DNA of 64,000 nucleotides from Deuterostichococcus epilithicus. Lineage: Eukaryota > Chlorophyta > Trebouxiophyceae > Prasiolales > Stichococcaceae. This document shows positions 1 through 63,600 of the stretch, in pieces. The stretch covers positions 434,001-498,000 of the forward strand of contig JAVTLE010000018.1 of the NCBI GenBank assembly GCA_033439295.1, read 5' to 3'. Position 1 is the first letter of the stretch, and the number at the start of each line of letters is the position of its first letter. A program made the position numbers and the translations under genes. The notes under the pieces were generated by a model that searched no databases, was not told where the DNA came from, and saw only the letters and a program-made list of their open reading frames with translations.

Positions 1-3000
1 GCGAGGCTTCGAGGCGAGCAGCGCTGGTTGACATTCGCATCCTAGCCCTGCGCAAAGACGCGACATGCTGGCCGCGGTGCAGTGCAAGCTTCTGAACCTA
101 ATAGTACGAACTGCCCGGTCCTGCAGTGCTGAAGGGCATCGAGGACGCCAAGTCGCGCGGCAAGAAGCCGGACGAGCTCCATGTGAGGGCTCCTTCTCGC
201 CATCTTGAACATGCATGCAGACAGGGCAGCGACGCTGACTAACGCTGCATGATATCGGGCTGACCCTGATCATTGTCGAGGAACATTTCTGAGACATGCT
301 TTCGACTGAAATACTGCTGTAGGCGATCATTCTGGAGCTGGACAAGAAGCACCTGCGGTACGGCAGCAGAAAGGAGAACCACTGGCGGGACCAGGTGATC
401 CACAACCCTAATGCTCATGGTAGTTTGCACACCATGGTGGCAATTTGGGTCTCTGTCTGCACGGCAGAGGCAGTGGATCAGTTGCATGGGCAATGAAGAT
501 GAGATCTGGAGCAGGTGTCGGCTTTCTGTGGCAGAATCCGTGACGCCTCCAGCGCCGCCCCACAGCAACGCGTGAGCGTGGCGGCCACCAGTGCACGAGC
601 GGCGCCTGTGACGCAGCGCTCTCTGATGGCCAATGTCCGCCATGCGGCCCCCCTATTTGTAAAGATAAATTACAAAGAAGAAAGACCTCAAGCTCTTGTC
701 CTCCACCATGCGCACAGGTGTCGCACTTTGTGCTGCGGCTGGCGCACTGCCGCGGGGAGGAGCTGCGGCGCTGGTTCCTGGCGCAGGAAGGCGAACTGTT
801 TGCCGCGCGCTTCAGGGAGGAGCCCGGCAAGGTGTGCCCTGGCAGCGCGGGCGCACACTGGCGCAGCAGGTTGACGAGTGGTGTCGCTGCAAGGCCGCCG
901 CATCATCCAGCTAGCACGCATCAGCAGCGATGCGACCAGATCGATGCCGGCCCAGCAGCGCGCTGGGCCAGTGCAGCACCGGGGCTGCAGCTTCCTCCGA
1001 AATTTCCTTTTTCTGTGCTAGTGTGCCGGCCTCACAGCGTGCTGCCCCAGCCCTGTCCCACCAGGCCCGGTCCCACCGGAAACCCTGCCTGCAGGCGGGA
1101 TCGTAGGGGCGTCGGCCTGGAGCAGCGCCAGGAGCTGCCGCGGCAGCAGGCCGGAACTAAGAAAGCAAATCCTGAGGTCCCTGCCTTGGCGTACAGGCAG
1201 AGATCTTCAGGGGCGCCGGCGCGGGGCAGCACCAGGAGCTACCATGGGAGCAGGTCAGAACCCACACTCCAAACCCTGAAACCCCTGGCGCACAGGCGGA
1301 GATCTTCAGGGGCGCCGGCCTGGAGCAGTACCAGGAGCTGCCGCGGGAGCGCGTGGCGCCGAGCACGCACGAGACCGGCTCGGCGGAGGCGGCGGAGGCG
1401 GAGGCGCTGCAGGCGGCGCTCCGGGACGTGGCCCTCTCGCGCGGCGACCGCGATGCGGCGGTCGCCATCGCCGCCGGCCGCATGGGCTTCTACTCGGTGC
1501 GGGTCCCCCCCGGGCAGTCACCGCCGCAGACGTTTCGGTCGCTCCGAATGGCGGTCGCGCAGCCGCACTCCGGGTGTGCAGCCTTGGCGGGGGTTGTCAC
1601 GGCGGGGGCGCGACGCTGTGCAACACTCGTCCCCATGGCTCTGTGGCTGCGCTCCTGGATCACGCATGTTGCGCGGCAGACTGGGCACGCGCGCGCCCTG
1701 CATCGAATCTCTCGGTTTGTCTCCTACTGCGCGCTTGTCCGACACCTCTCAATGGACATCTCGCGCTGCTGCTGCGCCGCAGGTGCCGTTCCAGGATGTG
1801 CCAGACCTAGTGGCGACGCGGCGGGTGCTGCTCGTGCGGGGCCAGGCCTACGTGCAGCAGGATCAGGTGCTTCTTTCCAGCGCAACCCAGACTCCCTCGA
1901 GGCCAGAAGTCGACAGGCCTGCAGGCGGTGCGGCGTGCTCGCCGCCGCCGCCCCCGCTGCGCGGTCCCGGCGGCTCTGTGGTTTCAATTCCTTACAAGAG
2001 CCGCGGCTGTGCTGTCTCTGCAAGGCGACTGACCTGTTGGGACCAACTGTTAGGACCGAGAAGGGTCCTCGAAGTGTTCTCGGCCGCCCGCACCAGGTGG
2101 GCTCGCTGCTGGTTCGTCACTTCCGCGGCGGCGTCGCACGCGGGCTGGCGCTAACAGCGCGTCGGTGGGTCACGCACACCGCCGCCGCCGAGGCCGGCCG
2201 CCTGGCGCCCGTCGTCGAGTCGCTGGCCACCAGGTGGGGGAGCTGCTGCAGTCTCCATCGAAGACAAGCGGCATGTTCGGGCATTGCTGCGGCGGGAGGA
2301 CGCCCGTTGCAGATGAGTGCCTCAGCAGGCGGCTGTGAATACCCTGTCTGCCGCGTGAGACCGAAGGTTCTCCACTTGTGCGATGCGAAACCCAGCCATT
2401 GGACAACCTGGGTGGAGAACCCCGTCGCCGCCCTAAACCCTGAACCCTGAACCCAGGTACCTGGGCCCGGACTACGGCGACGCGGCGGCGGGCGGCGACC
2501 GGGAGGCGGTGACGGCGGCGCAGGTGCCCGGCCTGGCGCGCCAGTCCTTCCCGCTGTGCATGGCGCTCATGGCGCAGCACCTGCACTCGGAGGCGCACCT
2601 GCGCCATGGCGCCCGCATGCAGCTGGGCCTCTTCCTGAAGGTAGGGTTTAGTGTTTAGGGTTTAGGGTTTAGGGTTTAGGGTTTAGATCGCCCCCTCTCC
2701 ATCGTTACGGGGCTGCAGGGTGACAGAGGACTGGGAGTCAGGGCAGGCAGCTGGCAGACAGCCCTCGATTGGTATGGCGCCGCGGAGGTGGACCTTCGCT
2801 GCGGCACCTGCATGCAGCTGAGCTCCTCCTGAAGGTGTGGAGTGCCGCCACACCGCAGCGCTGCCAGCCTGGAGGCGTCCCCTCCTCGAGCGCTGCCCGC
2901 GCGCAGCCGCAGGCACAGCAGCGCCTGTGGCACAGGTCGCCCTTGCAACGTGCGACTCGACGCAGGCAACACGCACACGCCACGTGCAGCACCTGTCCTT

Positions 3001-4487
3001 TGGCGGCAGCAAGCCGCTCAGGGTACACAGCAGCACCATGGTGGGCCAGAGGGATGCATTAGCGTCTGGCAGTCCCGCCTACCATTTGTCGGTATCCTGA
3101 CCGCTGCATGGCTTCCCCTGCCGCAGGGCATCGGGCTGCCCATGGAGGAGGCGCTGGCCTTCTGGCGCCAGGAGTTTGGCCCGAAAACGCCCGGCGATAA
3201 GTTCAACAAGGAGTACGCGTACGGGGTGCGGCACAACTACGGCAAGGAGGGCGGCCGCAAAGACTACACCCCCTACTCCTGCCTGAAGATCATCTCCACC
3301 ACGCCCGGCGTGGTGCGCTGCTCGTGATCTCCCTGCAAAACCCCCCTGCGAGGCTGCCATGTCTGGACCAGGTTCTCCGCACCTGCTGCAAGGCGACGTC
3401 CAAGGCCGCTCGTACAGGACGCTGTACCGGGAGGCGCTGCGGCGTGTGGGTGCAGCAGAGCCCCGCACACGTCTCACGCCCACACACACGAAACGTGTGC
3501 AATGCGCCCCGCAGGGCGATGCGCACGGGTGCCCCTACAAGACCCTGGACCGGGAATCGCTGCGGGCGGCGCTGCTGCGGCTGCGCGTGGCGGCCCCCGC
3601 CGTTGAGGAGGCCGTTGCCAAAGCCAAGGTGGGCATCGCTTGCCCGAGACCCTAGAACCTTCGCGGCCCATGAGCGGGCAAGCCTGCGAGGTTGCAGGCG
3701 CGCAGCCGGCGCGGGCGTGCAGCCTGTCGCAGTGGCACCGGCAGGAGGGCGGCAGGTTGACGTGCCTCCTTGCGAATTCGATGCCTGCTGGCATGGCCTG
3801 CACCTGCTCCCGATGTGCGGCACCGACTGCGTGCCGCTCGCAGCAGCACCGGCCGGGGCTTCAGACATTCGGCATCTTCAGGCCGCCTGCTGCTGCTGTG
3901 GCCTGACGCGGGTTCCATTCGTCACATGTCAGGCGGGGCACTTCCAGCTGGCGTGCGGCGCCGCGTTCCAGGGCGCCCACGGCTGTTCCTGCGACTCCGG
4001 CATCAACCATCCCAACCAGGTGACATCAGCCCTCAGCTGCTGACATTTGCAACTCTGCATCCTACGGACACAAGACTGCCAAGCATCGTCTGTCGCGCCG
4101 TTGGGCGTCATACCGCTGCATTCTGGGATTGCTGACGCTTCACGCCGGCGTGGCATCCTTGATGCCCGGCTTTGGAGGGACTGCCTGCGGCAAGGCTCAC
4201 AGAGCGGCGCTGGTTCGGCACACGCACCTGCCTCGACAAGGGAGCGTGTCGCCGCCCATTGAGGCCGCTCCTGACAGCAGGCATCTCGGGCTTTGGCTCA
4301 GGCTCCGCGCCAGGGTCCTTGCTCAGCTCTTCTGACGTGTGCGCCCTCTGTGCGTGCGTAGTACTACGACGAGAGCCGCAAGGTGCTGGCGGAGCAGGCG
4401 GCGGCGGCGGCCCCCAGCACGCCCGCCGCCTCGCTGCCGGCGCCGCCCAAGTCCACGCCAGAGGCGGCGCCTGCTAGTGTGAGCTGA
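1..4487 (+). CDS. PRIM2: DNA primase large subunit (p58), 5' end outside window
   Basis: Regulatory Fe-S subunit of DNA primase, which works with the catalytic small subunit and DNA polymerase alpha to make RNA primers in the nucleus. Exons whose phases close: 127-182, 323-394, 718-831, 1296-1496, 1783-1866, 2097-2233, 2457-2640, 3127-3312, 3515-3628, 3933-4019, 4362-4487; a further exon ending near 28 is uncertain. Diagnostic stretches are [20 protein letters not shown] (exon at 718) and [13 protein letters not shown] plus [10 protein letters not shown] (exon at 3127). The four [4Fe-4S] ligand cysteines are visible: [22 protein letters not shown] and [12 protein letters not shown]. The protein ends in an Ala/Pro-rich tail with TGA at 4485-4487. 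Several introns hold degenerate copies of adjacent exons and one is a TTTAGGG array (listed separately). The end of exon 3127 could be 3309 or 3312. Identity is very secure; the start is missing. Confidence 0.93.
1091..1248 (+). repeat. two degenerate copies of a PRIM2 exon start inside the preceding intron
   Basis: The real exon starts at 1296. Its first ~55 bases, including the upstream acceptor context, recur imperfectly at 1091-1150 and 1191-1248 (shared words AGGGGCG, GGAGCAG, CAGGAGCT). The three copies are spaced about 100 bp apart. Only the third stays in frame with the rest of the gene. Confidence 0.8.
2641..2686 (+). repeat. interstitial telomere-type array (TTTAGGG)n at an intron donor
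   Basis: The intron after the PRIM2 exon ending at 2640 begins directly with GTAGGGTTTAG and continues as about five TTTAGGG units, the first slightly altered. The preceding intron ends (2431-2456) with CCCTAAACCCTGAACCC just before its AG acceptor. The array is far too short for a chromosome end. Confidence 0.9.
2785..2836 (+). repeat. degenerate copy of the end of PRIM2 exon 2457-2640
   Basis: The copy matches the last ~50 bases of the exon, including the GCATGCAGCTG and CTCCTGAAGGT-like donor region. It lies about 150 bp downstream in the following intron, after the telomere-type array. It is not in frame with the gene. Confidence 0.7.
3389..3446 (+). repeat. degenerate copy of the start of PRIM2 exon 3515-3628
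   Basis: Translated, the copy reads [18 protein letters not shown]. The true exon reads [18 protein letters not shown], so the Fe-S cysteine is lost in the copy. It sits in the intron immediately before the real exon. Confidence 0.75.
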
Positions 4488-16581: not shown

Positions 16582-19500
16582 ATGAGCGCGAACCGTGGAT
16601 TCACGGCGGCCATTACTAGCGGCATTGGCAGCGCTTGGCGCAGATTCTCGGGTGTTGGTGCCCCTGACATGACATCGCCGCCCTCAAAGGTCAAGGTGTT
16701 CTTTATGCACCTCAAACTTTTGTGAGCCTCGATCTGCTGTGAGAAGGCTGGCTATCTGTAACCGTGCTGGATGCTTGCCGCATCAAGAGCAAGCTCTGTT
16801 CAAATTCTGGGCATTTCTGGTCAGTAGGGCTGACAGGCAACGGAGGCCTTGACTGTTGTTGTACTTCCGCAGGTAGAATCGGTCGACAACGAGCAGACAG
16901 CAGAAAACGAGGCTGAGGCGACTGTGGAGGCAGCCCAGGCTACAGCGCAGGCGGAGGCTGTGGCGCCGGCACAGCCCAAGAAGCGGGGCCGTCCACCTGG
17001 CAGCGGCAAGAAGCAGAAGGTATGTCATTGCAATCATATTACTTGATATGCAGCATCAAGTTTCAAAATGCAGTAGCATCTTACATCGTGGTGTGGCTGG
17101 AACTGATGGTGACTTTGCATGCGAGGTTCAAAGCGTTTTTTCGATCTCATACACCGAGCAGCTGCTGCAGGCACCGCCATGACTGCGGATGTTGCGGCAT
17201 CAACAGTGTATGCAAAGTGTATCATTCGCCAGTCTCACACCATGTTCTCTGCCCACTGCAGGCTGCAGCCGCCACTGCGAACGGCGGTGCGGGAACACCT
17301 GCAGCGCAGCCCAAGAAGCGGGGCCGCCCGCCCAGGAGTGGCAAGAAGCAGCGGGCCGAGGCCGCAAAGACAGAGGCTGCCGCCAACGGCACAGCAGAAC
17401 CAGCGGCGGCGCCGCCGAAGAAGCGCGGGAGGCCGCCCGGCAGCGGCAGGAAGCAGCAGGCGGCAGAGGCAGATACCCTAAACCCTACTGCTGCCAGCGG
17501 CGGAGGCGCCCCGCAGCCGAAGAAGCACGGCAGGCCGCCGGGCAGCGGCCACAAGCGACAGGCGGAGGCGGCAAAGCCTGAGGCAGGCGCCACTGGCGGG
17601 GCGGCCCCGCAGCCAAAGAAGCGCGGGCGCCCGCCAGGCGGCGCCAAGGGTCACGTGGTGCGCCTGTTTGGGTTTCCGTGCTATTTCATCTAGCTGATGC
17701 CGTTGCAAATAGCAGCCAAATGTCAAAACAAATTGCACACGGCTGGGTCCCTGCTCAGCAGTGCCGATGCAACTCTTTTGCCACCCAACAACGCTCAGCC
17801 AATCTGAGTCACACACAGCGGCGCCACTGTGCGTAAAGCACATTCAGCTCTCTAGAATGTTTGATGCGGAGGTTCGCATTTGTCCGCCAACTGCCATGCT
17901 AACAGCTGTTGCTTTGTGGTATTCAGAGCCTTACAGCCACTGCGGCGGCGGCGGCGACGCCCACGCCTGCGCAGCAGCCCAAGAAGCGGGGCAGGTCGCC
18001 TGGCAACGGCGAGGAGCACAAGGCAAGTCTGGAAGCTGCCTTGCCTCACATAGAGCTTGTCAAACTGTTGGGTTGTCATGTCTGTTGCAATGTGTGCGGA
18101 GGGAGGCAGCCAGCCATGCCCAAACCTGATGCATTTCTGAGTTTAACGGTCCTGTGGCTCGTCACTGGCGCCTGTCAGTGCGTCTCGGCGCCAGGCTCCT
18201 GCAACAGGTGCAGGTTGCAGTACCAAGGCCTTGCTGCCTACAAAGCATTGCATGCGTGGCTGAGCCAACGACTGCTTGATAATTTGTCTGCTCAAGATGA
18301 TTGCAAAACACATCTTTTTTGGCTCCTGGCAGGTGGAGGCGGCAGGCGAGGAGGCGGCGCCGCTGCCCAAGAAACGAGGCCGGCCGCCGAAGAAGCAGCC
18401 GGCGCCAGAGGCGGCAGCGGAGCAGGAGCCCGAGTCGGGAGTGACCGCCGAGGCGGCGGCGGTGACGGCGTCCCAGCCCGGCAAGCGGGGCAGGCCGCCG
18501 AAGAAGCAGCCGGCACCGAAACGGGCGGAACGTGCAGTGCAGACAGGTGCGTGCCGGCCTTTGTCGCGTGGATGCAGTGTGAGCGGGTCTGTGCAGCGTG
18601 CAGCCTGGACAGCCTCATTGCACCGAGCTGCAACACACCTTGGCAGAGAGAATATTCAGGGAAGGCTTCTGCTTGTGGGCTGCAACGGTCCCAAAGGCAG
18701 CCCCAGGTGACCTGAAATTTCAGCACAAGGTGGCGCTCTCGGAATGTCACCTCAAGCAAGCGTGAGACCATGGTCTAATTCAATTCTGAAAGACCCGCGA
18801 TGTTATTTTGCCGGGGCAGACAACATGGACGTGGACGCGCCGGCTGCGGCAGTGCCCGCAGCGGCGACGGAGGCGCCGCCAGCGCCTGCGGCGGCTGCAA
18901 CGCCCGCGGCCGCCGAGCCTGCGCCAAAGAAGAAGCGCGGCCGCCCGCCCGGCAGTCGCAACAAGCCGAAAGGCGAGCTTTCGTTGTGTGCTCAGACCTC
19001 AAACCAAGCGGCCTTGTTGGCAACAAACATGAGTGTGTTGTCAGCTCCTTTGTGCCACACCGCCTGTCGGTGCCCAAGCTTTGCACACTGCCTGCAGATC
19101 TACTTTCTGCACAACCAACATGCAGTTACGCATCCAGGCGCTCGGCTCCCACACAAGGACGTGAATGTGTGTGAGAACATCTGCTGCTCGACTGCCGATC
19201 AAACTGCAGCGGGCTGCCCTCTTACCTGTTCAAGGCAGCCTCTGCTGTTCCAGAGAGTGGCTCACCTTCTTGCGAGGCATGGGAGACACAACAGCAAGGC
19301 ATCTGGAGGCTCAACGCCGCCTGCGACCCCGCAGATCCGGAAAAGCTTGCTGCAGCGGACGGCGGCGCTGCCGCGGCGGACGGCGGTGCAGCCGCGCCGG
19401 ATCGCGGCGCCGCTGCGGCGCTGGGCGGCGAGTCGACGGCAGAGGGCACGGGCGAGACGGAGTCGCCGCCCAAGAAGCGGCGGGGCCGCCCGCCGGGCAG

Positions 19501-39409: not shown

Positions 39410-39506
39410 TGAGCCCGACTAAAACCCTGACAGGCTGCCCCATACCGTCCAATGACATGCAGACTGATGCTGCGGAAAGGCGCTGTGGATATGATGACTC
39501 ACCGGA
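39410..39506. repeat. third, direct partial copy of the inverted-repeat unit
   Basis: After the right arm, 39438-39506 repeats the inner part of that arm in direct orientation: GCCCCATACCGTCCAATGAC versus GCCCCATGCCGTCCGATGAC near 39007. It is preceded by two AAACCCTGACAG words. Confidence 0.8.
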
Positions 39507-41239: not shown

Positions 41240-43226
<1,987 letters not shown>

Positions 43227-43855
43227 TGCTTCGGGCTGTCCAGAGGGCCAGCCCTGCAAAGGGTTCTCTGTTAACGGGTCCCTGGATGCTGCTGGAGAAT
43301 GCCGCTGCCGCTGTCCCGGCGGGCACCGCCAGGCACTACTCACAGAGTTGATACGCAGCAACGTTGTAAACAACCGAAGTGGCGATGTCGCGGTGCTTTC
43401 TCAGCTGAAAACCTTCCAAGTTTCACTCCAGAGATGAATACCTGTAAACTTGCTTCGGCAGCATTACCCCTGTTCCCAGATCTTCTCTGGGCAATTTGAC
43501 TGCGAATTAAGCAAAGTTTTACCCATGTTGATACCATTGGAACGGCAGAGATTATCAGGCTCGGATTTTGCAGCAGGGAACAGCTCATCTGTGCAAGAGT
43601 AGAGACTGATGTAGGGTGATGCCGCCGGTGTGCCACACATCCTTTCCTGCTACTGTACATCAAGAAGCTGTGTCGTTTCCATCAAGCTCAAACACTAGGT
43701 GCTTAGACCCCAGGCTCACAACACCCCTCATGTTTCAGGCCATTTTCTGACATACAACAGCGAGGTGTGTGACGTGTGATGAGTCGAACAGCCCGTGTGA
43801 AACCAGGGCCACAGCAGTTGCCGCCTCCTGAGCGGCGGTGCCTGCCTCCTGCCGC
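43227..43855. other. convergent intergenic region
   Basis: The 3' flanks of calmodulin (+) and the second coiled-coil paralogue (-) meet here. No gene recognised. Confidence 0.5.
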
Positions 43856-46800
43856 CTACTTGCTGCTGTTCACCTCCTTCGTCTCCGTCTTCACTTCCTT
43901 GCGGCCCTCGCGACGTTCCTCTGCACGTATCAGTTCAGCCGATCAGAAAACTGCAGGCGGCAGGTCTCTTGCACTCCTCCTGCGGCAGCGAGTACAGGAT
44001 CCTGTCCACATGCTGTAGCACATGCTTCAAACCAGCCCAGCGGCCGCTGTCTGACCAGCCCGGCCCCCACACGACATCACTGGTGACCTGCAGAGGTGAG
44101 CCGAAGCACCGACTTTGCCAGGTGAAAGCCCCCAGGCAGCAGCAGCTTTCGCACCGACGTGCTTGGCGGCCTGCGCGAAGCCCTTTTCGGCCTCTTTGTC
44201 CGCCGCCTCGCCCGCGCGCTTGGCGGCCCGCCAGGCCTCCTCACGCTTGCCCTGCACGAACAGGCCGACACTGCTGAAATGCGAGGCGCGGCTGTCGTCA
44301 CCAGAATGGAGATCAGTCCGGTGCTTCCGGAACACGAGCGTTGTGGCCAGTCAGCGCAGTCGCACTTGGAGTGTGCAGCATGCACCAAGCCCGCGCAGAT
44401 GCAGGTGCTTACCGAACAAAGGCATGTGCGCATTCATGGTTAGGCTGGCGCAACTCCCGGGAGCCAGCATGCAGATGTTGCCAAAACAGTATGCGGGCCA
44501 GCCAATGAAATAGACTGGCGTCCGCTTTGAGCTGCAGTTGCAGCTGGGTCGAAATAGACAGCATATATTGAACCCCGTCACTACGCCCCAGCTGCCGCCC
44601 CATGTTGTAGAAACTCGTCATGCGATTTTCGACAAGCTCTCAACGTCAGCTGAAAAGCCCTCGAACACACCTGCGCGGCCTCGGCGGCGACGCGCGCAGC
44701 CTTGGCCTCCTTCTCCAGCTCCTTGGCGCGCTCCTCGTTGCCCGTCACCGCCTTGCGCAGCTGCTTCAGCTTGTCCTGCGGACGTCATGATGACAACCCT
44801 CAACAACTCACATGTCCAGGCAGACAGGGCTGTCAGCAGATATCAGTTCCTGCAGATGTGGTCTCGTTGCCCGTCACCGCCTTGCGCAGCTGCTGTAGCT
44901 TGTCCTGTGGAAGCCATGATGAAAGACCCTCAGAAAGCGACTTGCACGCAGCGCCTGCTGCGCCGTGCCCGCCAGCGCGCCTGCCGGGCTCTGCTGGTCG
45001 GCAAACTCGCTGTAGCCTCCTAGCTCAGGACTGGCGCTGGTGCTTGATGACAACCCTCCTAGGCTGGCGACGAAGAATGGGTGGTGTGCGGTGGACGGAA
45101 GGAACGCACCAGCAGCGGCTGCAGCGCCTGCTGCGCCTTGCCCAGAGCCTGCTGCTTGGCCTGCAGCTCGCCCTCGTGCCCCTCCGCCTGCTTCTTGACC
45201 TGCGATGGATGATAGCGCCGCGGGCTGTAGAACATGCAGATGTCAGCTGTTCGCACTGCCTCAAAGTCCAGCCGTGAGTTCATGACGGGGCCTGCTTGGG
45301 ACTGGCGGCAGCACCCGCTTCAACAATTTTCGTTTCACGATTAGATGAACCCTGCTGGACGCGGCAGTCCTGACTTATGACATGCGTCGATTTGAAGGCA
45401 TGACATCGATCTGCTGCTGCGTCCAGCAGGACATCATCAGGAAACATGACTGCGAACAGCCCTCGGTGCTGACACCCGTGGTCGCAGGCATGGGCACATG
45501 CAGGCACCTTATCAAGCTCGGAGGTGTCCGCCTTCAGGCCCTGCAGCTTCTTCTCTGCTTCCTGCTTGGCTGCCTCCGACTGCTTGCCCAGCTCCTCGGC
45601 CTGCTTCTCCTTGGCCTTCAGCTCGTCCTTGGCCTCCTTCCTCTTGGCCGCCAGCTTCTCGGCACGCCGGCTCTCCGCGTCGGCGGCGGCGTTCTGCGGT
45701 TGCCATCACAATGTATTCAGCTAAAGTGTTGAGCAGCGATGAGTGACGCAGCAGAATGCGCCTCCTTCTCATTTGCGGCCAGCTACTTGGCGCTCCGGCT
45801 GTCCGCGCTCCTGGAGGCGGTCTGCAAGCGACGCTGAGGCACAACTCAGGACCAACAGGGGTGAGGCTCCTTAGTGGCGTCTTTCTGCCTCCCAGAAGAA
45901 CGAAGCCACTGGAAGACCGAGAGGGGTGAAGCTTCTCAGTGGCGAGGTTCTGCTGCCAGTGCAACGAAGCCACTGAGCTCCCGTAAAGAATGTGGACACC
46001 GTACTTATAACCTGACATTATTGGCATGATGGGTGTCAGCCTTGGCAGGAGTGCTCTGCGGCCAGGAATGTGGGGCGTGCTGGTCAGCGTTTTGATTCAG
46101 GGGCGCACTGCAAGGCAGCGTGCAGTGCTTCCGCGCCTTGGTGGCGGGACTCTGCGGCCAATGTGAGCACATGGCAACGACTCGCATGAAGTGAAGAATG
46201 CATGCTGCACTTGCTGCACCTCAACGAGAGAAGACTACGCATGGGCCCATGCGCGCTGCATGCTCGCTTGCTAGGCCCAGTTCATTCGCAGAATTGTCAG
46301 CAGTCAGCAGTGCTCCACTGCTCCATGCGGGTAGGCTGAGCTCGTGGGCCCAGCGCCTGAGCTCCGCAAGGCAGCCGTGGCAGGCTGCGACATTCCTTCC
46401 AATTGAGTCCCGCCGTCTTCCACAACGAGCCGATGGCCACAACCCACAAGCGCGCACCCATTCCTTGACGTCGTGCTCCAGGGTGTCCAGCTCGGACTTG
46501 GCGCTCGACAGCTCGCTGGCGGCGCGGCGCACCTTGGCGCGCGCCTCGCGCGCGGCCTGCTGTGCTGCCTCCATCTGCTGTCGCAGCTCCTCCGCCTTCT
46601 CCTCCGACTCCCGCTGCGCGCGCCGCTGCGTGTCCACCTCCTCCTGTCGGGCACCAGGGTCGGCTGTGACGTCTGTAAAATGTGCGAAGTTACCAGGTTT
46701 TTAATCCACAAAGGGAACCTGCCGCACCCGCCGCCGCAGCTCCTCAGCCTTCTGCTCGCTCTCTCGCTGTGCGCGCCGCCGCTTGTCCACCACCTTCTGG

Positions 46801-49800
46801 CGCTCGGCACGTGGTGGATAGGAACCTCAGTTGAGCAGGCAAAGACCATCGCTGAATTAATTGAATTTCATTGGAACCTTGATCCGTTTGCAGCCGCTCC
46901 TCCGACTCCCGCTACTGCGTGCGCCGCTGCTTGTCCAGCCTCCTCCTGCGTGCAGCACAGTAAACGGCTGTAGACTGGCTGAAACGCATAGTCCTCGCTA
47001 AGAGAAGTTGCCCCGGCTGGCGCTGCAGCTCCCTACCTCGCTGCTCGACCACGTGCAACACCTGCGTCCGCTCCCCTGCCTTGCTGCTGTGCCTTTTGTG
47101 GGCCTGCCTCTGCTTGCGCATCTCATAGTCGTGAGGGGCGTTGCACGCTGACAAGACCCTGGCATCAAGGGGCCGCAATGGCACGCATATTCCAAACACG
47201 GAACACCAGGCTCCTCCAGCACCGACTGCTGCAGCTTGGACTCTGCTGCTAGCTTGGCTCCTACTGCAGCAACATGTGACTGATATTCCGGCGTCAGAGC
47301 AGCCATGGCAAGCAGGTACATGCGCCAAAATTCCTCTGTCACATGGCAGCCTCACCCCTGAAGGCTCTTGCTCCGGCGGCAGCGGCGCTGCGGTGCACAA
47401 GCTGCTGCAATGCAGCCCTCTTCCACCACTCGCCCCGGCCCCACTGATCATCGCACCAGTTTTATGAGTCGGCGCCTATTATGCGCGCACCTGCAGCTTG
47501 GCGACCTTGGGGCGCAGCGGCTGGGCCTTTTTGTCTGCCTCCTCTGCCGCGCGCTTGCGCTCCACCGCCTTCTTGTTGGCCTGCGCGCGCATTTGTTCCG
47601 AGGATGAGGACCACTAAGCTGGTGCAACTGGGCCAGCCGGCAATGCAAGGTGGGGTGTGTGCACAGGATAAGGGGCTGGTTCAGAACCAGTGGTTCTGAT
47701 CGAGTGATCGCTGTGCTACAGCTGGCCTGCAGGTTGCATGACGGGAAGTCCGCCATGTCACACAACCGGCAACTGGGCTGCACCAGTGCGGCGCTGCCTA
47801 GAGAAAAGCACCTAGGATACAATAGAAACGTGCCTCGTCCAGGGCGGCGTTGATGCGCTGGATCTGCTTGTCGATGCGCTCCGCCTCCTTCTTGGGGCCC
47901 TCCTGCTTGGACGCCTGAGAAGACACACACAAGGCTGACATTGGCAGTAAGTGCATGCGCCATGATGCCGCATGCATATGTAGGCAATGCTGCTGACGCA
48001 GCAGCGGCGGATGGTTCACGGCGCCATCTGCTGCTGCGTTAATGTCCTATTGCGTCACCCAACCCGTACCCTCCGAGGACGAGGGCAAGGAAAATGGGGC
48101 GGACAAAGACATCCACATCCCGTGGGCAGGAGCATCCCAGCCACTGCATACTCTACACCGACTGCTGCGCTGACTGCCGCCTGGGAAGTGGATCATGACC
48201 CATGTAACCTAGGTCCTCAATGCCCCGTGGTGCAGTGTGTGCAGTGGCTGGTATGCCGCTGGCCAGCAGGCAGGCAGCCCACCAGCACATCGCCATAATC
48301 CACGGGCTTCCCGGACACACGACCAGGCGATGGCCAGCTCACTGAGAGAAAAGCAAACACACCAGCTCGTCGGCCTTGTCACGCAGGTCCTGGATCTCCT
48401 GCCGCTCTGCTTCCACCTCCTTTTCCTTGTCTTCCACCTGCCAGTAGCAATTGCGTAACGGTAGACGAGCGAGTCAGCGGCAGCAGCGGCTCTGGGAACA
48501 TGCACTGTCTTGAGGATCGCGCCAAGCCGATAGCGGCGTGGCGCGGAGGCTGTGATGTTGGGCAGAGAGCGCCAAAAGCAACTGCGGCTTGCCCAGGCAT
48601 CAGCTCCTGCAGCTAACCAGTCTCCTCATCAGTGATGATGGCAGCGGCAAGGGGTTGTATGTGCACCAGCTGTGCTGCTTGCCTGAATGAAAGGACGCAT
48701 ACCAATCTAAACACCCACGAGATGACTTCTGTATGTCGCGAAGAATCGTATTGTGCACTACAGCATTGCAGGCACGGCAACTAGGCAAAGCGCGCCATCG
48801 CAGAGCAGGCAAGCACACATCATGTTGGCGCAGCTGTGGCAGCCCTTGCAGCGCGCAGGTGTACGAAACGAAGGAGCCTCTGCATGCAGCAGAGACCTGT
48901 ACACGGGCTTCTAGGTTGGTGAGCGGTGCGGCCCCCGAAGCTCCGGTTGCAAATGCAGGCCAGCAGTGCACAGCGCATCACTCAGCGGTGTACCTGCTTG
49001 CATGCCTCGTCACGTACTATCAAGTGACCCAGCAGATGTAGCCCATTGATACAACCGCTTGCGGGCGTTGGTGTGCGCCAACGAACCGCCTCCCTGGACC
49101 ACTTGGAGTACTACAGCACGGGCCGCAGGCAGGTGCACTGCTATAATGTCTGCGGGCTTGTGTTGCAACCTTCTTGCAACGCGCACCAGCTTGCGGGCTT
49201 TGTTGTAGTCGGAGGTGACGCGGTCGAGCTCCTTCTCCACGTTGCTGACGGCCACGTCCTCCTTCTCGGCCTGCAGACAGGGGGATGAACTCCATCTTCT
49301 TTGCTGTTGGCAGACCAATGATGCAGTCTGAGGCGCGTCTGCTCTGCTGATGCGCTGTGAAGCATCGATGGATATCCCTGCCTGCGGCAGCACGTGTGAC
49401 CTGCAGCCTCGCAGGCGATTACGCCTGCCCATATTGGCAGTAGGGTTTCAATCAGAAAGTGTACCTGTACCGAGCAGGCGAGCAGGCGCTGATAGCAGGA
49501 AATGCAGGAACCAATTGAAAGTTCCTGTCGGCGTGCGGACACACAGGCGCAGCAAATGAGCCTCAATTCCCGGAAGCCCACGGCAGCAGCAGCAGGCTAC
49601 GAGCATGCAGCAGCACTGCATACCGATTGTTGGCCATGCTCCAGTGCAAGGAAAACGACCACCGGATCACGCAGGGAAAGGTGAAGCAAGGAACAGGTGT
49701 CGCGATTCAGTCATCCGGGAGGTCATGCCAAACCGATATTGAGAAAGAACAAGACGGCAAGTTGAACCAATAAGGAACACCGCACCTCCACGTGCTGCTG

Positions 49801-51004
49801 CTGCTTGCGTGCGTCCTCCGCCAGGGCGCGCGCCTCCTCGGCGGAGTGCGTCTTCTTGACGGCCTCGGCGGCGCGGACGTGCGCCACTCTCGCCTGCTCC
49901 TTCGCCTCCTCCGTCAGCCGTTGCGCCTTCTCAAACTCGGACTCGGCTTCCTGTGTGTTTATGAAAAGCGCATTTTCAGCTGTGTACAGGGATGCCGAGG
50001 GACTGACTGTGCTGGTGGACTCTGCGGCGCTGTCACTCCCACATGATGCATGGTGTGCTACCATGGAGTAGTGCTGCATGTAAGCCACAGTGCTTGGCGA
50101 CAGGTGTCGCTGTTGTGACCAGCCTTCCTTGCGACGACAGTGGAACTAGACCAAGACATCCTCGTGGCAGATCCCCAGAGTCAGCAGATGCGCTTTGCAT
50201 CTTCAAAGCAGGCTCACCGAGGAGGCGACCTTCGTCTCGGACACCTCCTTCTTCTCCTCCCTGGTGGCGTGGCTGGAGACCTCGCCACTTTTGCTGTCTC
50301 CACTGCCAAGGAGGGTGGAAGCCAGGCCGCGCACCTGTGCTGGGCGTGAAGCAGATGACTTGACCGTCAACACTACAACGACAAACCGCATGCTCTCGTA
50401 ACCTCAGGGTGCTGTGCTATCTTATAACGCAAGCACGAAGGGCAGAAGTAAATGAAAGAGCAGGGCATGACTGCTTCGGTTGCTTGAGAGATCTAAGCAC
50501 TCACGATGCCGCCGACGAGGCTGCCGCCGCTGCTCTGAGTGCGTTCAGTGCTCACCTGTGGGCAAGAGAATCACTTCACTAATTAGGTTACGGCAACTCG
50601 GTATGCAGCAGCTGTACTACATGATCTGAACCAAACCTGTGCACACAAACAGTGCCGCAGCCATTTGCGCATTGCCATTGCAACTGGGGCCTGAGTGAGA
50701 TTCTTTGCAACATCAGAAAGCAGGTCGGGCAGTTGCTTCGTATAGGTCCATGCCGACAAACATCCAGACAAGCTCAAAGCTTTCCGGCAATGCCCGTCCG
50801 AGATCCATGCGGACTGGTGCTCGATACATGTGTCTGCTGCATATGCCCAGCAGGCACTTGACACGACATTGGACCTCGTTGCAATGCAGTTGCCGGCTGT
50901 GCCAAATGGAGGTATGAACAGCAGCTTCTGAAAGCTCACACCTGCTCGCCCTCCGTGGCGTCCTTGGTATTGCCTGAAGCATCGTCGGGGCGTTTGAGCA
51001 CCAT
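43856..51004 (-). CDS. coiled-coil protein, tandem paralogue B
   Basis: Exons, minus strand: 50942-51004, 50505-50555, 50218-50334, 49786-49950, 49187-49270, 48363-48437, 47834-47914, 47491-47580, 46458-46643, 45508-45693, 45110-45199, 44671-44775, 44155-44251, 43856-43920; all phases close, 484 residues. It starts MVLKRPDDASGNTKDATEGE, then a Gly/Ser stretch. The rest is almost entirely Ala/Glu/Lys/Arg/Gln heptad-type helix, for example FEKAQRLTEEAKEQARVAH, SAKSELDTLEHDVKEW, DELKAKEKQAEELGKQ and LKQLRKAVTGNEERAKEL. No enzymatic domain is visible. Ten consecutive exons have exactly the same length as those of paralogue A, so the genes arose by tandem duplication. The intron after 47834 begins GC. 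Introns of this copy contain several degenerate exon fragments that paralogue A lacks. Function unknown; a filament-forming or scaffold role is only a guess. Confidence 0.88.
44861..44931 (-). repeat. copy of the start of paralogue B exon 12, with acceptor
   Basis: On the minus strand the copy reads DKLQQLRKAVTGNE after a CACAG acceptor. The true exon (start 44775) reads DKLKQLRKAVTGNEERAKEL. The duplication also includes about 20 bp of intron (CATGATGA..ACCCTCA). Confidence 0.85.
45758..45830 (-). repeat. degenerate copy of the start of paralogue B exon 10
   Basis: The segment resembles 45625-45693 (shared CTCCTT.., GCGGCCAGCT.CT, GCTCTCCGCG-like words) but contains a stop in the homologous frame. 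It lies in the intron just upstream of the real exon. Confidence 0.65.
45858..45975. repeat. imperfect 54-bp tandem duplication in paralogue B intron
   Basis: 45858-45911 and 45923-45975 share GGGGTGA.GCT.CT.AGTGGCG and ACGAAGCCACTG. Each copy has internal AGTGGC/GCCACT complementarity. Confidence 0.85.
46735..46950 (-). repeat. two degenerate copies of the start of paralogue B exon 9
   Basis: The start of exon 46458-46643 (on the plus strand CTCCGACTCCCGCTGCGCG and GTCCACCTCCTCCTG) is echoed at about 46737-46797 and again at about 46890-46950, both in the upstream intron. A weaker third match may exist near 47035-47120. Confidence 0.75.
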
Positions 51005-52392: not shown

Positions 52393-55300
52393 TCAATCCA
52401 CGTATGTCGTGGCCTTGGCCTCCGTCTTCTCGGATGTGACGACCTCCGCCTGCTTCTGCGCCAGCGACGCAGTCTTGTCGCTCTTCTCGGTCAGGGTCTT
52501 GGCCTTGTCCACATCACCACCTGCAGTTTCCATACCACTTGTTAGCACCTGGTGATCTGGAAAGACGGTTCACATGTATGCAGATCAAGATCGTCTATTG
52601 GTAAGCTCTCACAATTTTTGAGCCAATAACACGCAGGGAAAATTGTGACGACTCACCAACGGCCTTGGTTGCGTCCAGGTAGCCCTTGTCCGAGCGTTCA
52701 TCCGCCTTCTCGCCGATGGTCTTCGCCTTGTTCCATGCCTCCTCCTTGCGTGCCTGTAGCACACAAACAGGAAGATGTGAAAGGTCGGCAGAAAAAGAGT
52801 TTTGAAGCTGACAATCACACGAACGGAGTGTACGGATATGCAACACGCATGGCGGTCAAGCAGGAAATTTGAAACAACGGCCTAAAAAGGCTTTGGTTGA
52901 CGATGTAGGCTCACACCTGTGCGATGTCTGCCTGGTCGCTGATTTTGTGCGACTCCTGCTCCAGCTCAGAGGCGCGCGCCTCATTGCCGCGCACCGCCTT
53001 GCGCAGCTCCTCCAGCTTTTTCTGCAGTGTTGGGGGGAAAAACAGCAACGGGATCAGCGGGTTGGTTGCAGTCTGGCAACATGCTGAAACAGCAGCTGCA
53101 GCATGTGAGAGCTCTAGCATGTTGCAACGCTCCAGACTACCATGACATTGACGAACAGCTACGGACAGCCACACATTGGAAAGTGTTCGTTGTCATTTCA
53201 GGAGCATCACAACACACCTGCAGCGGCGCGAGCGCGTTCTTGGCGTTGGCCAGCTCGCCCTGCTTGCCGTCCAGGTTCTTCTGCTGGTTGGCTGCCTGCT
53301 GCTTGATCTGCAACCAGAATAAACAGGTAGCTTCGATAAGATTGTTTGAAACCTATGTCAAAATGCAACAGAGAGATGCAAACAACGACAGAAGCAAAGA
53401 AACGCATTTGTCGATCACGACCAGCTGTTGACGGAGCAACAAAACACTCTCGAGCAGCCTCAATTGCAAAGGGGAAACCCGTCACACCTGGTCCAGCTGC
53501 GAGGTGTCCAGGCTGAGCGCCTTCAGCTTGTCCTCCGCCGCCTTGCGCGCATCGGCGGCCTGGCCCTGCAGGCTGTCCACCTCGCGCTTGGCCGCCTCCA
53601 GCTTCGCCTGGACATCCTTCTTCTTGGCGGCCAGCTCGTCGGCACGCTTTGTGGCCTGGCTGGCCGTCGCTTTCTGCATATCCACAAGTCAATGTGGCAT
53701 TAGCCAGAATGGCGGTACTCACCAGCAGCAGCAGCGACACAAGGAGCGGCGGCAGCAGCACACAGCAGGACGTGACACGAGCAACGAAGGACACAGCACA
53801 ACGGCGCAGCTGTGGCGGGTTCGAGACTCACGCGCTCGCGGACGTCGTGCTCCAGGGTGTCCAGGTCGGACTTGGTGGAGTCGAGGGCGCTCTTGGCGTC
53901 GCGCTGGCGGGCGCGCGCCTGCTGCGCCGCCTGCTGCGCCTCTGCCAGCTGCCGCTTCAGGTCCTCCACCTTGGAATCGGCAGACTGCGCCTCCTGGGCT
54001 GCCGCCTCCACCTTCGACTGTGTCGCAAGCAACGAGGAGCGGGTCAGCGCCTGCAGTTCAGCCTGTGCTTTGCAGCGGGGCAGGATATCTGCTTGCGCAT
54101 ATACACTGGATTGCATATGCACTGAATTTTCCTCCTCGGGAATGAGTGCCTGGCTGGCGTCTGCAGTCTTGCAGACTCTGAACGTACACAAACATGAGAG
54201 GAACACACCTTGTAGTCGGAAACCTTGGGGCGCAGCGGCGACGCCTCCTTCTCAGCATCATCAGCAGAGCGGCTGGCGTTGACGGCCTTCTTGTTGGCCT
54301 GCAGGGGATCGATGTCAGAAAGTCAGGGGGCAGGGTGCACAGTGAGGGCAGCCACAGAGGTGTGCAAAGACGCCCTGGCTGTCTCCAGCAAGAGTCAGGG
54401 CAGCAGAGTTCACACACGAGGCGTGCAAGACCATGCGCCGAGCAGGGCATGGAACATGCACCGGCCGCAACACATGCACCGTCTGTGCGACGTCACCAGG
54501 ATGGCTCGTGGCACGTCTGCAGGCAGCGAAAATGTCTGCAGGCTTGCAGGCAGCAGGAGGAAAAGCACCGCACCTCATCCAGGGCGGCGTTGATGCGGTC
54601 CAGCTTTGCGGCGAGGCCCTCCACTTCGTCCTTGGGGCCCTTCTGCTTGGCGGCCTGCAGGTCATAGCGTGGCAGGGGCTCAGCTGCGTACGCAAGGCAG
54701 CTCCGACATGTGTGCAGCTTCTGCTGCGTGCGGCGCGTCCTGGAGGCGGACCCCAGCAACAGGTTGCAGATGCCGAAGCACGCACGTGGCACTCTGCCAC
54801 AGGGCCATATCCACGAAAACTGTTGCGCAGCAAGGCATGTGCGCAAGCAAAACAAAACCATGCAATGCACGCACCAGGTCATCGGCCTGGTCGCGCAGGT
54901 CCTGCACCTCGCGCTGCGCTGCCTCCAGCTCATTCTCCTTCTCTGCCACCTGAGTGCCAGTGAAACAGTCCAGGATGAGGAAAGCCGCTAACACACATGA
55001 CACAGCAAGCACAGCCGCCCCAGCGCTTTTGCAGAGGAGTGGACATGCCAGACGCGCACATGCCAGTTGATGCTTCGCAGCACAGCCAGCACTGTGGAGT
55101 AGGTTTCTTCCAGCAATGAGGACGGATCCACATGAGCTGGCAGGCTTCAAAGCAGCACAGCATGAGGACGGATCCAAATGGGCTGGCAGGCTTCAAAGCA
55201 GCACAGCATGAGCAGCGCAGCATGACTGGCAAAGTGAGGGGAAGCGCACGTGCTGGCGGGCCTTATTGTATTTGGCGGTCAGCGCATCCAGGTCCTCCTC

Positions 55301-56925
55301 GATGCCAGACACGTTGACATCCTTCTTCTGGGCCTGCAGCAGGCAGAATGGCACACCGATCGTCAACAGTCTCAAGCATCTCCTTGGAAGCTGTCCTGCA
55401 CCGGAGGCCGCCGCGCAAGGGAGCCAGCCTGGCGTGCAAGCACCAGATGACTCGTGAGCAGCGCTGCAGGCGGAGCAGGGCTGCCAGCGAGGCAGGCTCA
55501 GGGCACAGGGTCGGTGCGAATGGCAGCGATCGGCATACCTCGACAGAGGCCTGCTGCTTGCGGGCGTCCTCGGCCGTGAGGCGCGCCTCCTCGGCGGTGT
55601 GCGTCTTCTTGACAGCCTCTGCAGAGCGGCTCTGCGCGATGCGCGCCTGCTCCTGTGCCTCGGCTGTCAGGCGCTGTGCCTGATCCCACTGCGACTCCGA
55701 CGCCTGCACTTGAAAAGACTGGCATGAGTAGCTGGCGGTTTGGCTGTGATCAGTTGTGGAGGATGTCGCTCGCTGTCGGATCAAAAGGCCAGATCTGGAG
55801 GGTTGGTGAAATAAACCGGGCAGAATGAAGGTCAGCATGCACAGAGGGGGGTTAATCGCACATTATTGGCAGCATTGGCGTGGGTGACCTCCCTCTTCTC
55901 GGACTTGGATGCGTACGAAGAGGTCTGCACATTGCCGCCCTGGCTGGCCTGCGCAGCGCTGCCCTCATTGCTGTCGCCATCATTGTTGCCGCCGCCGAAC
56001 AGGCCACGGACCTGTGCGCCAAGCACAAGCTGACTCAGGAGACCTTGGTCAGCAACGTCGCACTGGGTCTTTGCGATATGCATACACATGGGATCTCAGG
56101 CACAGCATGCAGCCTACCATGCCACAACGGCAGTAGACAAGTGTCTGCATTCGAAGGACCACACAAAACTCACCAGGCCGCCGATGCCGCCGCCGCCGCC
56201 GGACTTCTGGGTGGTGGTGTCGGTCTGCACATGCGCGGAGCCGACCTGGCCCTGCGTCGATGACTGCGACTGCGACATCTGCGATGCACAATGAAGCAGC
56301 ATGTCAGCGACAACATGTTGGGCAGGCCTGTTGACAGCCAGACCAAAATTAATGGGTCGGAATAGCTCAATCCCGAAAATTGTCGCGAAGCCTCCATCCT
56401 ATGCGGCTGTCGAGGTCGTACAGTAAATCTTAATTCCTGGTTGCAAAGTATTGCATCGCGGCTGCAATCTCAAAGAAGAAATGCGTGAAAGAGCTGTTCC
56501 GAAGCTGATCAGAACGCGGTCATCGGGTAGCGGCGGCCGATGCAATCGAGCTGCAGTTCCTGCCATCGGATACAATATCTGCAGCTGTGGCTATTGCAAG
56601 CTTATCGAGGCTCGTGCGAGATGGCATGAAGAGCTCAATCGCGCGCAGACTGTTTCAAAACGTGTTCCGAACGTGCGCGTGGGTTTGTCGCAGTTCGAGA
56701 AGGCATGCATGCGCCGAGCGGCGCATGACACAGGCCGCTACCTTTTGCAAATGTGATTGAACCCCCCGCATGCTGCACTTGGCTGACGCGGACCCTCAAC
56801 TTCCTGAGATGGCCAGCGAGTTGACCGGCGTGAAATGCATCAGGGTCGCGGCGGCGCAAAGCCTGAATCGGCTATACCTGGTCGTTGCTGCTGTTCTCGA
56901 CGGTGTCGGGACGCTCCAGGACCAT
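52393..56925 (-). CDS. coiled-coil protein, tandem paralogue A
   Basis: Exons, minus strand: 56878-56925, 56174-56278, 55862-56011, 55539-55703, 55250-55333, 54875-54949, 54574-54654, 54209-54298, 53832-54017, 53488-53673, 53218-53307, 52917-53021, 52657-52753, 52393-52520; all phases close, 529 residues. The start MVLERPDTVENSSNDQ matches paralogue B's MVLKRPD. The next exons are Gln/Ser/Gly-rich (MSQSQSSTQGQ, VRGLFGGGNNDGDSNEG). From exon 4 on the protein is continuous charged helix: AQRLTAEAQEQARIAQSRSA, DALTAKYNKARQH, LDTLEHDVRER, AKLEAAKREVDSLQGQA, LRKAVRGNEARASELEQE. Exons of 165, 84, 75, 81, 90, 186, 186, 90, 105 and 97 nt are identical in length to those in paralogue B. The last exon ends VVTSEKTEAKATTYVD. 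No known family is assigned. Introns here are short and mostly free of exon copies. Confidence 0.88.
55116..55207. repeat. 46-bp tandem duplication in a paralogue A intron
   Basis: Copies 55116-55161 and 55162-55207 differ at only three or so positions (shared GCTGGCAGGCTTCAAAGCAG). They lie between exons 54875-54949 and 55250-55333. Confidence 0.95.
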
Positions 56926-60600: not shown

Positions 60601-63600
60601 AACAGGTGAGCTGCACAGGCAAATTTGGATGTTTAGGGTTTAGGGCGCACCGCCAGGCGGCGTAGCGCTGTGCGTGCCGTGGCGTCGTCCGCCGGCGGCA
60701 CATCGCGCAGGAACAGGCTGTCGGAGGTGGCCAGGTCCTTGAACGGCATGCCGACCGCCATCTTGCATCCCAGCGCCCTGTACATCAGGTCCGGCTGCTT
60801 CAGGTCCTGCAGCACGGAATTGAACTGTTATGAGAGCAGGAGCGAAACCATCATGATTTGGTCCTTAATTTGCGCAGCTTTCTGCCTGCCACCTTGCAGC
60901 CCATCGCACAGTCGCATTAGGTTAAGCTGCTTTGGATCCAGCCGTGACTCCGTCCTACTTCCTACTTCGTCCTACCTCCAGCGTGACGGCGGACAGCACG
61001 CTGCCATCGCGGTGCAGCAGGGAGCGGTAGTCCACGTCGCCGTCGCCGGGCCGCTGCTCCGGAAGCTGCCCCACACGGCGCCCGAAGTCATGCGTGTCGC
61101 GCTGGGTTTCGTGGTACTCGGGGATGCCCAGCCCCGTGGCGACGGCGCGCTCGCCCCACCGAGCCAGCTGCCTGCGGTTGCATTGGAAGGGCCGCATCAT
61201 GAGGTGTCTGAGGTGGCGCCAAATGAGATGGCGACGCATGCAGCGCGGCGCCTGTGCGTGGGAGCTGCCCATGTGCCGGTGCCGGCTCCATGCATTCGCG
61301 ACGCCACGATGGCCGCCGCGCGGCCCACAGCACCGTGCTCTAGTATCGACAATGGCAGTGCCAGCAACAGTGCGCCCTGTTGGCCAGAGAAAAGCAAAGC
61401 GCCCTGCCGATGGATGACGCCCTGGTAACAATCGAACCAGAGGACCCCTTGGGTCCCGCACCTGCAGGGGTCGATCTCCAGTTCCGGGTCCTCTGTGAGT
61501 GACACGCGGATGGTGTCGCCCAGGCCGTCCATAAGCAGCGCCCCAATGCCAATGGCGCTTTTCATGCGCCCGTCCTCGCCCTCGCCCGCCTGTGACCCAC
61601 CATGACCAAGTTCTGATCGGTGAACAGAGTTTCACTTTGATGCAGAGCCAGAGAGCCTCAGTGCCTGCATTTTGCACTAAGCAGCGTGAAAATCTGGGGT
61701 CGAATGACACGCCTGCAGGGTGCTGCAACTGCTGGGCCGCAGCCTGACAGCGTCCCCCTCGACCGTGCATTCGAGAAACCCGACGACCAACTATCCCGAG
61801 GCACCGGATTGGGAGGAGGCGTGCCAGAGGTGTGGGTCAGAGTCTGCACAGGATGCGGACCTCGGTGACGCCCAGGTGCAGGGGGTAGTCCCAATTCTTG
61901 AGGTACATCTCCTCCGCCAGCAGGCGGTACGCCTGTGGGTGCGCAGCAGACAACATTGCATATGGGGATGTGACATCAGCTGAAAGGACAATGTGCGGCG
62001 GTCCATGCGGCTTGCTGACGACGCTGCCGGCGCGCCGCAGGCTCGGGCGCGGGAACTGCAGGCGCCGAGCGCGACCCAGCAGCTGGTCTGCCCAAGGTCG
62101 GCCACGAGTGGCTCCCGCAGCGATGCATGTGCCCCTGCAAATCCATACACTAAGGCGCACGAACCCTAAACCCTACGCACCTGGACCATGACCAGCGGGT
62201 TGGAGGCCTTCATGGAGAACAGGAAGTTGTGGTAGTCCAGGTCGCGGCACATGTCCGCAAACTCGAAGGCGGACTCCACCATGCCGCGGGGGGTGTCGCC
62301 GTAAAAGGACAGGATGCGCGCCGACAGGGAGCCGTGGTTGGTGCCGATGCGCATCGCGCGGCCCAGGCGCTTGCACTTCTCCACCAGCGGCGTGAACTTC
62401 TGCGGGCAGCAGGGCAGAAGGGCGGGTGCGTGAGGGGGACCCAGCTCGGAGCGTGGGAACAGCCCGCCAGCTTGTGCTTGCAGGGCGTGCGTGGGACTTC
62501 AGCAGACTGTGCCCATTTGGGCAAGCACGGCTGCCTTCTCAACCGCCAGCTGCATCCTTGCAGAGGGCGTGCTCCAGTTTTGATGACACATGTGTGCAGG
62601 GGGCTGCCGAATAAGGTGCCATGTTCACTCCGTGCCTCCCTCCTCGTGCCTGGCTCCTCAAGACGCTGCGAGGGCGTCCACAAGGTTGAAGCTGATGCGC
62701 AGACAATGTGCTTAGATTCACCACAAAACTGAAACTATTTTATTCTATCTACCTCCCGCATGTACTCGCGCTCAGCGACGAAGGCCTTGGGGTCGTCGTA
62801 CGTCATCTCCTCGAAGGTCTTGCGGCCGTCTGAAAAGTTCCCGGGGTTGATGCGGATCTTCTCGAAGGCGTCCGCCACCAGGAGCGCCACCTTGGGGTTG
62901 AAGTGGATGTCTGCCACCAGCGGGGTGTCGTAGCTGCGGCGGGTCAGCCAAGATTTGGTTGTCACGTTTCTCGCGTGAAAGAGTGACAACGTCTGATGTG
63001 CAGTGAGGAGCCCTTTCTGAGTTGAAATGGATGTCTGCCACCAAGGGGCATCGTGGCTGTGTGCAGGGGTCAGAGAGAAATCGGACGCTGCGGCCTGCTC
63101 TGGCGGGCATTTCCTGCGGACACTTGCGGATGCTGCCAAGCCTATAAAGCGGTCGGCTGCACATTGTGCTCAGCGCCGCTGCGGTCTCACACCGCACGAA
63201 ATCCTGTCCCCTCCCGCCGGGCAGCAGCTCCTTGCAGGCGCCAGTTGCAGCATCCAGGGCGCAGGCGCACTCGAGGGCACCAACAGAGAGCGTCCCCCAG
63301 CGACCGGAGCGCACCCGTCCTGGAAGAGGCGGTCGCGGATCTTGCCGCAGGCCTTGGCCTCCTGCATGCCCTGCACCGTGATGCGCACAATGTCCGCGCC
63401 CACATCCGCGCACCGCTTCACCTGGTGGACACGAAAAAGCTGCTCTCAGGAGGCTGAAGGTGTAGGGTTATGTCCGTGGGGCGGCCCGTCCGCGTGCCTC
63501 TCGGTCCCATCAGGGATGTGCCGGGCAGGCGCAGCTGGGAGAACGGAGTCTGCGCGCCGCACTGCATGCGCTGCCTGTCGCGCAACTTCATTTCGCACGC

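Follow-up and report, generated by a model that had tools for sequence, protein, structure and literature searches.

Introns of the green alga Deuterostichococcus epilithicus contain decayed partial copies of the exon ends beside them, which we call exon echoes. We analyzed a 64,000-nucleotide stretch (C16:434001-498000), referred to here as the window, together with 23 ten-kilobase stretches of the same genome, 294 kb in total. The results confirmed that exon echoes are a real pattern and that it holds beyond the window. The copies are short, direct and local, and their decay resembles that of neutral DNA. As their source we lean towards short, direct duplications of neighbouring sequence that arose in an old wave, each unit measuring about 100-150 bp and spanning an exon-intron border.

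Exon echoes exceed controls within and beyond the window

Each exon edge (120 bp) was aligned to its adjoining intron in the 567 predicted introns of at least 90 bp, giving 1134 exon-intron pairs, and a raw score of at least 30 was counted as an echo. The results showed 48 such pairs, compared with 0.7 for permuted introns (mean of ten), 0 for reversed and 3 for reverse-complemented introns. Echoes were present in 47 of the 567 introns (8%), namely 10 of 119 in the window and 37 of 448 outside it, where 13 of the 23 stretches contained them. They were found on 8 of 10 sampled contigs, and the recurrence in unrelated genes proposed by an earlier sequence-only reading of the window was upheld. 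Local direct repeats gave a similar result: the window contained 27 pairs of at least 36 bits at offsets of 20-600 bp, and ten dinucleotide shuffles contained 0. The random stretches contributed 58 pairs, 39 of them with offsets of 80-180 bp (a satellite stretch, L022, being still included). When 82 pairs were typed, those longer than 400 bp being left out, 47 joined an exon or exon border to an intron, 11 were intron-intron, 16 exon-exon and 8 of other types. Nearly all copies differed by 4-30%, which speaks against assembly duplicates; one 31-bp pair was identical. The copies had been described as decayed to different degrees; few of them are young.

Some of the 27 window pairs are ordinary coding repeats (16.9-19.5 kb). 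The repeats at 16956-18517 lie in one gene, partly at a spacing of about 105 bp, and show by eye a KKRGRPP-like motif, which we take to be AT-hook-like.

The distribution of echoes was uneven. On contig C18 (stretches L009-L015), 1 of 150 introns carried an echo versus 46 of 417 elsewhere (Fisher 7.7e-6, a value that overstates certainty as echoes cluster in genes; by stretch P 0.003), and stretches differed in echo frequency beyond the effect of intron length (P 0.0005). The genome-wide process suggested earlier is supported in that echoes extend beyond the window, and qualified by this unevenness.

The genome comprises 46.8 Mb in 21 contigs at a GC content of about 61%, with TTTAGGG-type repeats at contig ends; judged by these telomere-like repeats and the GC content, it probably fits a green alga. 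A total of 24 stretches of 10 kb had been taken from nine contigs, and L022, a satellite array with 72% GC, 51 N and offsets near 255 and 585 bp, was left out afterwards. Genes were predicted with a self-trained hidden Markov model (HMM), trained on the window and the 23 stretches of this one genome without RNA support. It predicted 597 introns, with a mean exon of 132 bp and a mean intron of 291 bp; exons made up 28% and introns 59% of the sampled sequence. The splice consensus was CAG/GTGNG at donors and GCAG/G at acceptors, the slash marking the border. Internal stops were absent from the 55 gene models, which in part follows from the design of the gene finder, as it does not allow in-frame stops inside an exon. 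Pfam recognized all three window protein stretches (GcpE/HDS, the GH5 glycosidase or 'mannanase', and an F-box-like domain) and 6 of 10 short source exons, one below the cut-off; among ten stretches tested, the two with matches were PRIM2 exons and the other eight gave none. These assignments cover PRIM2, HDS, the GH5 gene and the F-box gene, and the coiled-coil gene is a predicted model only.

Echoes are direct, local copies of the near exon end

Within 260 bp of the border, 46 matches were direct and 1 was inverted in the 1134 pairs, and among local repeats of at least 36 bits 83 were direct versus 3 spaced inverted, a further 20 inverted ones being palindromes. These results support a local, direct duplication, and inverted templated insertions were rejected on the same counts. 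In exons of at least 130 bp, the near 60 bp were copied in 36 of 485 cases and the far 60 bp in 1 of 485; copies in the next intron instead of the adjoining one numbered 1 of 1002. The far exon border was reached by 3 of 48 echoes, and copying of whole exons with both splice sites is not the pattern that these counts show. The median offset was 123.5 bp (10-90% range 91-203 bp) and the median aligned length 42 (15-87), in line with the earlier description of 50-75 bp pieces spaced at roughly 70-150 bp. That description had also allowed one to three copies per exon end; the arrays inspected held one or two.

Echoes decay much like neutral DNA

Decay was assessed in 40 echoes with alignments of at least 25 bp. 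Mismatch frequencies at codon positions 1, 2 and 3 were 0.17, 0.15 and 0.24, 17 of 19 indels were not multiples of 3, and 4 of 587 echo codons were stops. The mismatches at every codon position and the frame-breaking indels indicate near-neutral decay of the echo alongside a conserved exon. A reading frame kept by selection, as in tandem alternative exons, was not found in these 40 echoes. Splice dinucleotides were retained in 15 of 28 echoes (donors 7 of 12, acceptors 8 of 16). Nothing supports a general role of echoes as exons, and the proposal that they supply raw material for alternative exons was not borne out, with one possible exception: the coiled-coil pair at 46582/46735, predicted as two exons, could be an echo taken into a protein.

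Introns with echoes are longer, and most echoes are probably old

Echo introns were 6 of 70 at 90-150 bp, 2 of 110 at 150-200 bp, 3 of 213 at 200-300 bp (5 of 323 for 150-300 bp taken together), 11 of 85 at 300-400 bp, 19 of 55 at 400-600 bp (20 echoes) and 6 of 34 at 600-2000 bp. Relative to the median length of the remaining introns in the same gene, introns with a single echo (n=26) were 116 bp longer and those with several (n=12) 248.5 bp longer, a comparison that is indirect and assumes that echo introns began as average introns of their gene. These gains come to roughly one and two offsets, which suggests that every event added a whole unit and not just an echo of about 50 bp. The sequence gained appears to match the repeat offset. 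The intron enlargement predicted earlier is supported indirectly, as is the old age of the echoes.

The score distribution was fitted by 93-126 events on the 1134 borders, mostly near a divergence (d) of 0.25-0.3 substitutions per neutral site and some at 0.4-0.5. No echo scoring at least 80 was counted, where a constant rate, scaled at score 30, predicts 17-21. With so few high-scoring echoes, most echoes would be old, or the process has slowed; this age estimate depends on a simple substitution model and an assumed exon constraint.

Echoes in five genes of the window

The sequence-only reading had named PRIM2, the mannanase, the large F-box gene, a coiled-coil gene and HDS. All five were found as gene models, each with echo introns: PRIM2 at 832-1295, 2641-3126 and 3313-3514, GH5 at 25867-26357, F-box at 33208-33310, coiled-coil at 44776-44877, 45694-46457 and 46797-47490, and HDS at 60807-60975 and 62934-63314. 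Four of these introns (starting at 25867, 44776, 46797 and 60807) score no more than 30-31. For two of them there is support from longer pairs cut by the predicted border or exon choice, namely the coiled-coil pairs 44734/44863 (90%, 70 bp) and 46599/46897 (82%, 76 columns). The F-box pair 33152/33264 and the coiled-coil pair 44734/44863 are cut by predicted introns; whole, they would score above 80 by identity and length.

In PRIM2 (plus strand), the start of exon 1296-1496 with its acceptor AG (1293-1350) is echoed at 1194-1251, in a contiguous tandem unit of about 100 bp, and again at 1092-1147, at an offset of 201 bp. The end of exon 2457-2640 (2588-2642) has an echo with the donor GT at 2783-2836 (offset 195), and the start of exon 3515-3628 (3511-3565) has one at 3388-3442 (offset 123). 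A telomere-like array of 6.4 copies of TAGGGTT (2642-2686) lies directly behind the donor of exon 2457-2640, in the echo-bearing intron. In the F-box gene (plus strand), the end of exon 33076-33207 with its donor and 15 intron bases (33152-33222) is followed by echo 1 at 33264-33334 (93%, unit 112 bp), inside which the predicted intron ends, and by echo 2 at 33366-33436 (68%). By eye, the intronic part of the echo 1 unit is conserved at both ends and not in the middle.

The other three genes lie on the minus strand. In GH5, the source at exon 25739-25866 (25824-25871) has a weak echo at 25938-25985 (raw score 31), and a border segment at 28285-28338 has a copy at 28366-28425. In the coiled-coil gene, an exon-border segment at 44734-44802 is copied at 44863-44932 (90%), both copies being partly predicted exon; the source at exon 45508-45693 (45632-45697) is echoed at 45760-45825 (offset 128); and the copies at 46582-46649 and 46735-46802, both predicted as exons, have an additional copy at 46897-46971 within intron 46797-47490. 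A contiguous tandem duplication confined to intron (unit 65 bp, strand unassigned) occupies 45850-45975. In HDS, the source at exon 62753-62933 (62897-62947) is echoed at 63021-63073 (offset 124), and a weak second echo, of exon 60651-60806, lies at 60888-60932 (score 31).

Four short matches (74-82% identity, 73-132 bp) link the coiled-coil gene region 43856-51004 to 52393-56925, about 7-8 kb downstream, with no longer match between the two in the window. Paralogous introns lacking an echo, which would reveal the empty site, were sought for L021 1900-9100 and window 43800-48100; none turned up, and short matches only were obtained. A near-palindrome of about 920 bp (38494-39409, 89.7% identity), a 72-bp piece of which is directly repeated at 39436-39506, had no other copy in a genome search.

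A proposed tandem duplication and the sharp splice border

A small tandem duplication across an exon-intron border, most likely during DNA break repair or replication, would leave the original splice site in use, so that the duplicated exon edge becomes intron. The intron would be lengthened by about one unit, and the echo would then decay as neutral DNA. We infer both the event, a tandem duplication, and the repair pathway. Paired nicks in plants reportedly lead to small tandem duplications (Schiml 2016). The earlier suggestion of local tandem duplication or slippage stands as to local, direct copying; plain duplication or slippage with neutral decay does not on its own produce the observed stop at the border.

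Similarity ends about 4 bases past the splice border on both donor and acceptor sides, and a few pairs include 12-30 intron bases. The copies had been said to carry, often, the splice border and some intron; the intron part is mostly only about 4 bp. Copy coverage of the last 30 exon bases was 5-7% on the donor side and 10-11% on the acceptor side (218 and 214 borders), falling to 0.7-2.4% across intron bases 10-39 and to 0-4.4%, mostly 1-2.5%, deeper.

The duplication account does not explain why likeness is gone from the unit's intronic half, and several further results weigh against this account. An ungapped border profile had seemed decisive against tandem duplication; it was weakened by indels and best-match selection, and a pair-HMM test was therefore relied on, in which log odds on the spacers of 26 testable echoes were compared with those of mismatched spacers and simulated duplications. 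The spacers were not clearly more like their expected partner than mismatched spacers (P 0.06-0.26), and simulated tandem duplications with neutral decay kept higher similarity in the intronic half. None of 5000 resamples was as low as observed at d 0.2-0.4 with an indel/substitution ratio of 0.08, likewise 0 of 5000 at d 0.25-0.3 with a ratio of 0.2, and P was 0 to 0.013 over eight further settings; the observed 0.011 indels per base lay below all eight (0.016-0.026). At d 0.4 with a ratio of at least 0.2 the test is powerless, as heavier decay hides the signal. In a local-score version, 4 of 26 spacers reached z>2 where 38-53% were expected. Contiguous pairs numbered 2 of 49 among those involving exons versus 4 of 7 among intron-only pairs (Fisher P 0.0013), counts in which pairs of one array are not independent and from which the snoRNA-like copies of L011 and EE/NN/IN/bN/Nb pairs were left out. 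Two intronic copies of the L021 array match at 95% over 40 bp, and by eye their flanks look unrelated more than about 13 bp past the border.

Contiguous units do occur. PRIM2 832-1295 is a contiguous tandem array (log odds 5.5-7.3 in five settings up to d 0.4, indel ratio 0.08) and the one clearly contiguous case among the 26; the F-box array is also a contiguous tandem, and L016 looks like a duplication unit by eye. The four contiguous intron-only duplications have units of 65-145 bp, the scale of the echoes. Homology contiguous over the whole unit was not found for echoes as a class, and tandem duplication is their best explanation rather than a proven class. On balance we favor the possibility that the intronic halves disappear more quickly than small changes would lead one to expect, for example by block replacement as in the F-box array.

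A sequence of about 60 bp at L021:7430-7490 recurs at many places of the genome, on either strand; on C12 two of its copies are separated by about 100 bp. At L011:8021-8588 there are three 91-bp copies, 92-95% alike, with unrelated spacers. They match SNORD24-like C/D small nucleolar RNA (snoRNA) models at 30-31 bits, below the gathering score of 41, and are probably an intronic snoRNA cluster; no further place was found in a search of their own genome. The case indicates that spaced copies with unrelated spacers can also mean selection.

Alternative explanations

A less probable but possible alternative is that a template switch during repair or replication copied exon-edge sequence into the intron but stopped at the splice site, perhaps with splice motifs shared with intronic decoy sites serving as microhomology for the switch, or with exon chromatin or the pre-mRNA setting the limit, all of them conceivable routes. 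The end of similarity at donor and acceptor borders, the drop in coverage there and the pair-HMM simulations, which disfavor pure tandem duplication with neutral decay, all point this way. At 23 echo borders the first 4 intron bases fit the splice consensus (43.5 nats over random) and bases +5 to +8 were not copied (copy minus random -26.4 nats); true copying, however, explains the first 4 bases equally well (better by 4.8 nats). The gain of about 116 bp per echo, rather than about 55, also argues against it, as do the two contiguous tandem cases and L016, which resemble duplication units, and intronic copies are harder to detect since both copies decay. No pathway known to us would end its copying at splice sites. 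It is similarly doubtful, if not slightly more so, that a mutational process reads exon borders and, during a burst in the past, placed short direct copies of exon edges, ending about 4 bases beyond the splice site, some 60 bp away in the intron; such a burst would have reached perhaps one in ten exon-intron borders and would be visible in about a third of introns of 400-600 bp.

We consider it unlikely that echoes are former alternative exons, that is, duplicated ends once spliced under selection and later pseudo-exons, of which only exon and splice consensus stayed alike. The consensus at echo borders, the coiled-coil pair still predicted as two exons and the L011 copies, which have the look of selected copies with unrelated spacers, would fit this; against it, echoes are partial exons, their offsets are multiples of 3 in 17 of 48 cases (by eye), which is no excess, about half of the splice dinucleotides are gone, and exons of an age at which introns are saturated would seemingly have diverged by more than 0.24 at third positions. 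A present function as decoys, poison exons or alternative splice sites is very improbable: some echoes retain good donor or acceptor motifs, but the neutral mismatch pattern, the frame-breaking indels and the lost splice sites oppose it. Chance similarity, shared codon composition, satellite repeats or assembly error hardly come into question. Some single matches do score only 30-31, yet the permuted, reversed and shuffled controls and the divergence of nearly all copies contradict such an origin, and the PRIM2 query (1091-3000) matches only telomere-like repeats elsewhere in the genome.

Two further candidates were rejected. A shared spacer element, as in introners, was not found, no spacer-spacer match exceeding 21 bp, and a processed (cDNA) insertion was not indicated, as 190 of 696 bases (27%) beyond the exon end match the next exon, which is the baseline. 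With telomeric filler in mind, eight motifs were counted; AAACCCT stood out, with 56 occurrences versus 23.1 expected from base composition, in the whole sample with spacers not separated.

Significance and comparison with known systems

Local duplication of exon borders offers a measurable, roughly datable cause for intron lengthening. With one copy under the protection of coding selection, echoes preserve a fossil record of short duplications otherwise lost in introns, and a single genome suffices to read the rate, unit size and age of such duplications. If the sharp edge at the border proves genuine, a mutation process that responds to splice borders would be implied, a surprising result. 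Keyword searches of open-access PMC turned up no account of partial exon copies as a general trait of algal introns, which is weak evidence of novelty; what appears new is the pervasive, border-anchored, decayed form that enlarges introns in steps of about 120 bp, for which these searches gave no match.

Duplicated exons in introns are known from animal surveys of tandem exon duplication (PMC9013439), in which, as here, similarity searches detected an exon copy inside an intron of its own gene. Algal echoes, by comparison, are incomplete and decayed, are mostly tied to a single border and lie about 120 bp away, with no mutually exclusive exons seen among them. Tandem genomic duplication is described for potato RdRp, together with an 83-bp duplication inside an intron (PMC4974935). 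The likeness is a short tandem duplication touching exon and intron; here, by contrast, an existing intron is lengthened, no new one arises, and the original splice sites are apparently still used. Small tandem duplications also arise in break repair through CST-Pol alpha fill-in and end joining (PMC8355091), and these resemble echoes in being short, direct, local and tens of bp in size. Unlike them, most echo spacers do not fit a contiguous duplication with neutral decay. Introners and introner-like elements (PMC9860276) share with echoes a change of introns on a genome scale, whereas echoes are local exon copies whose spacers share no element family.

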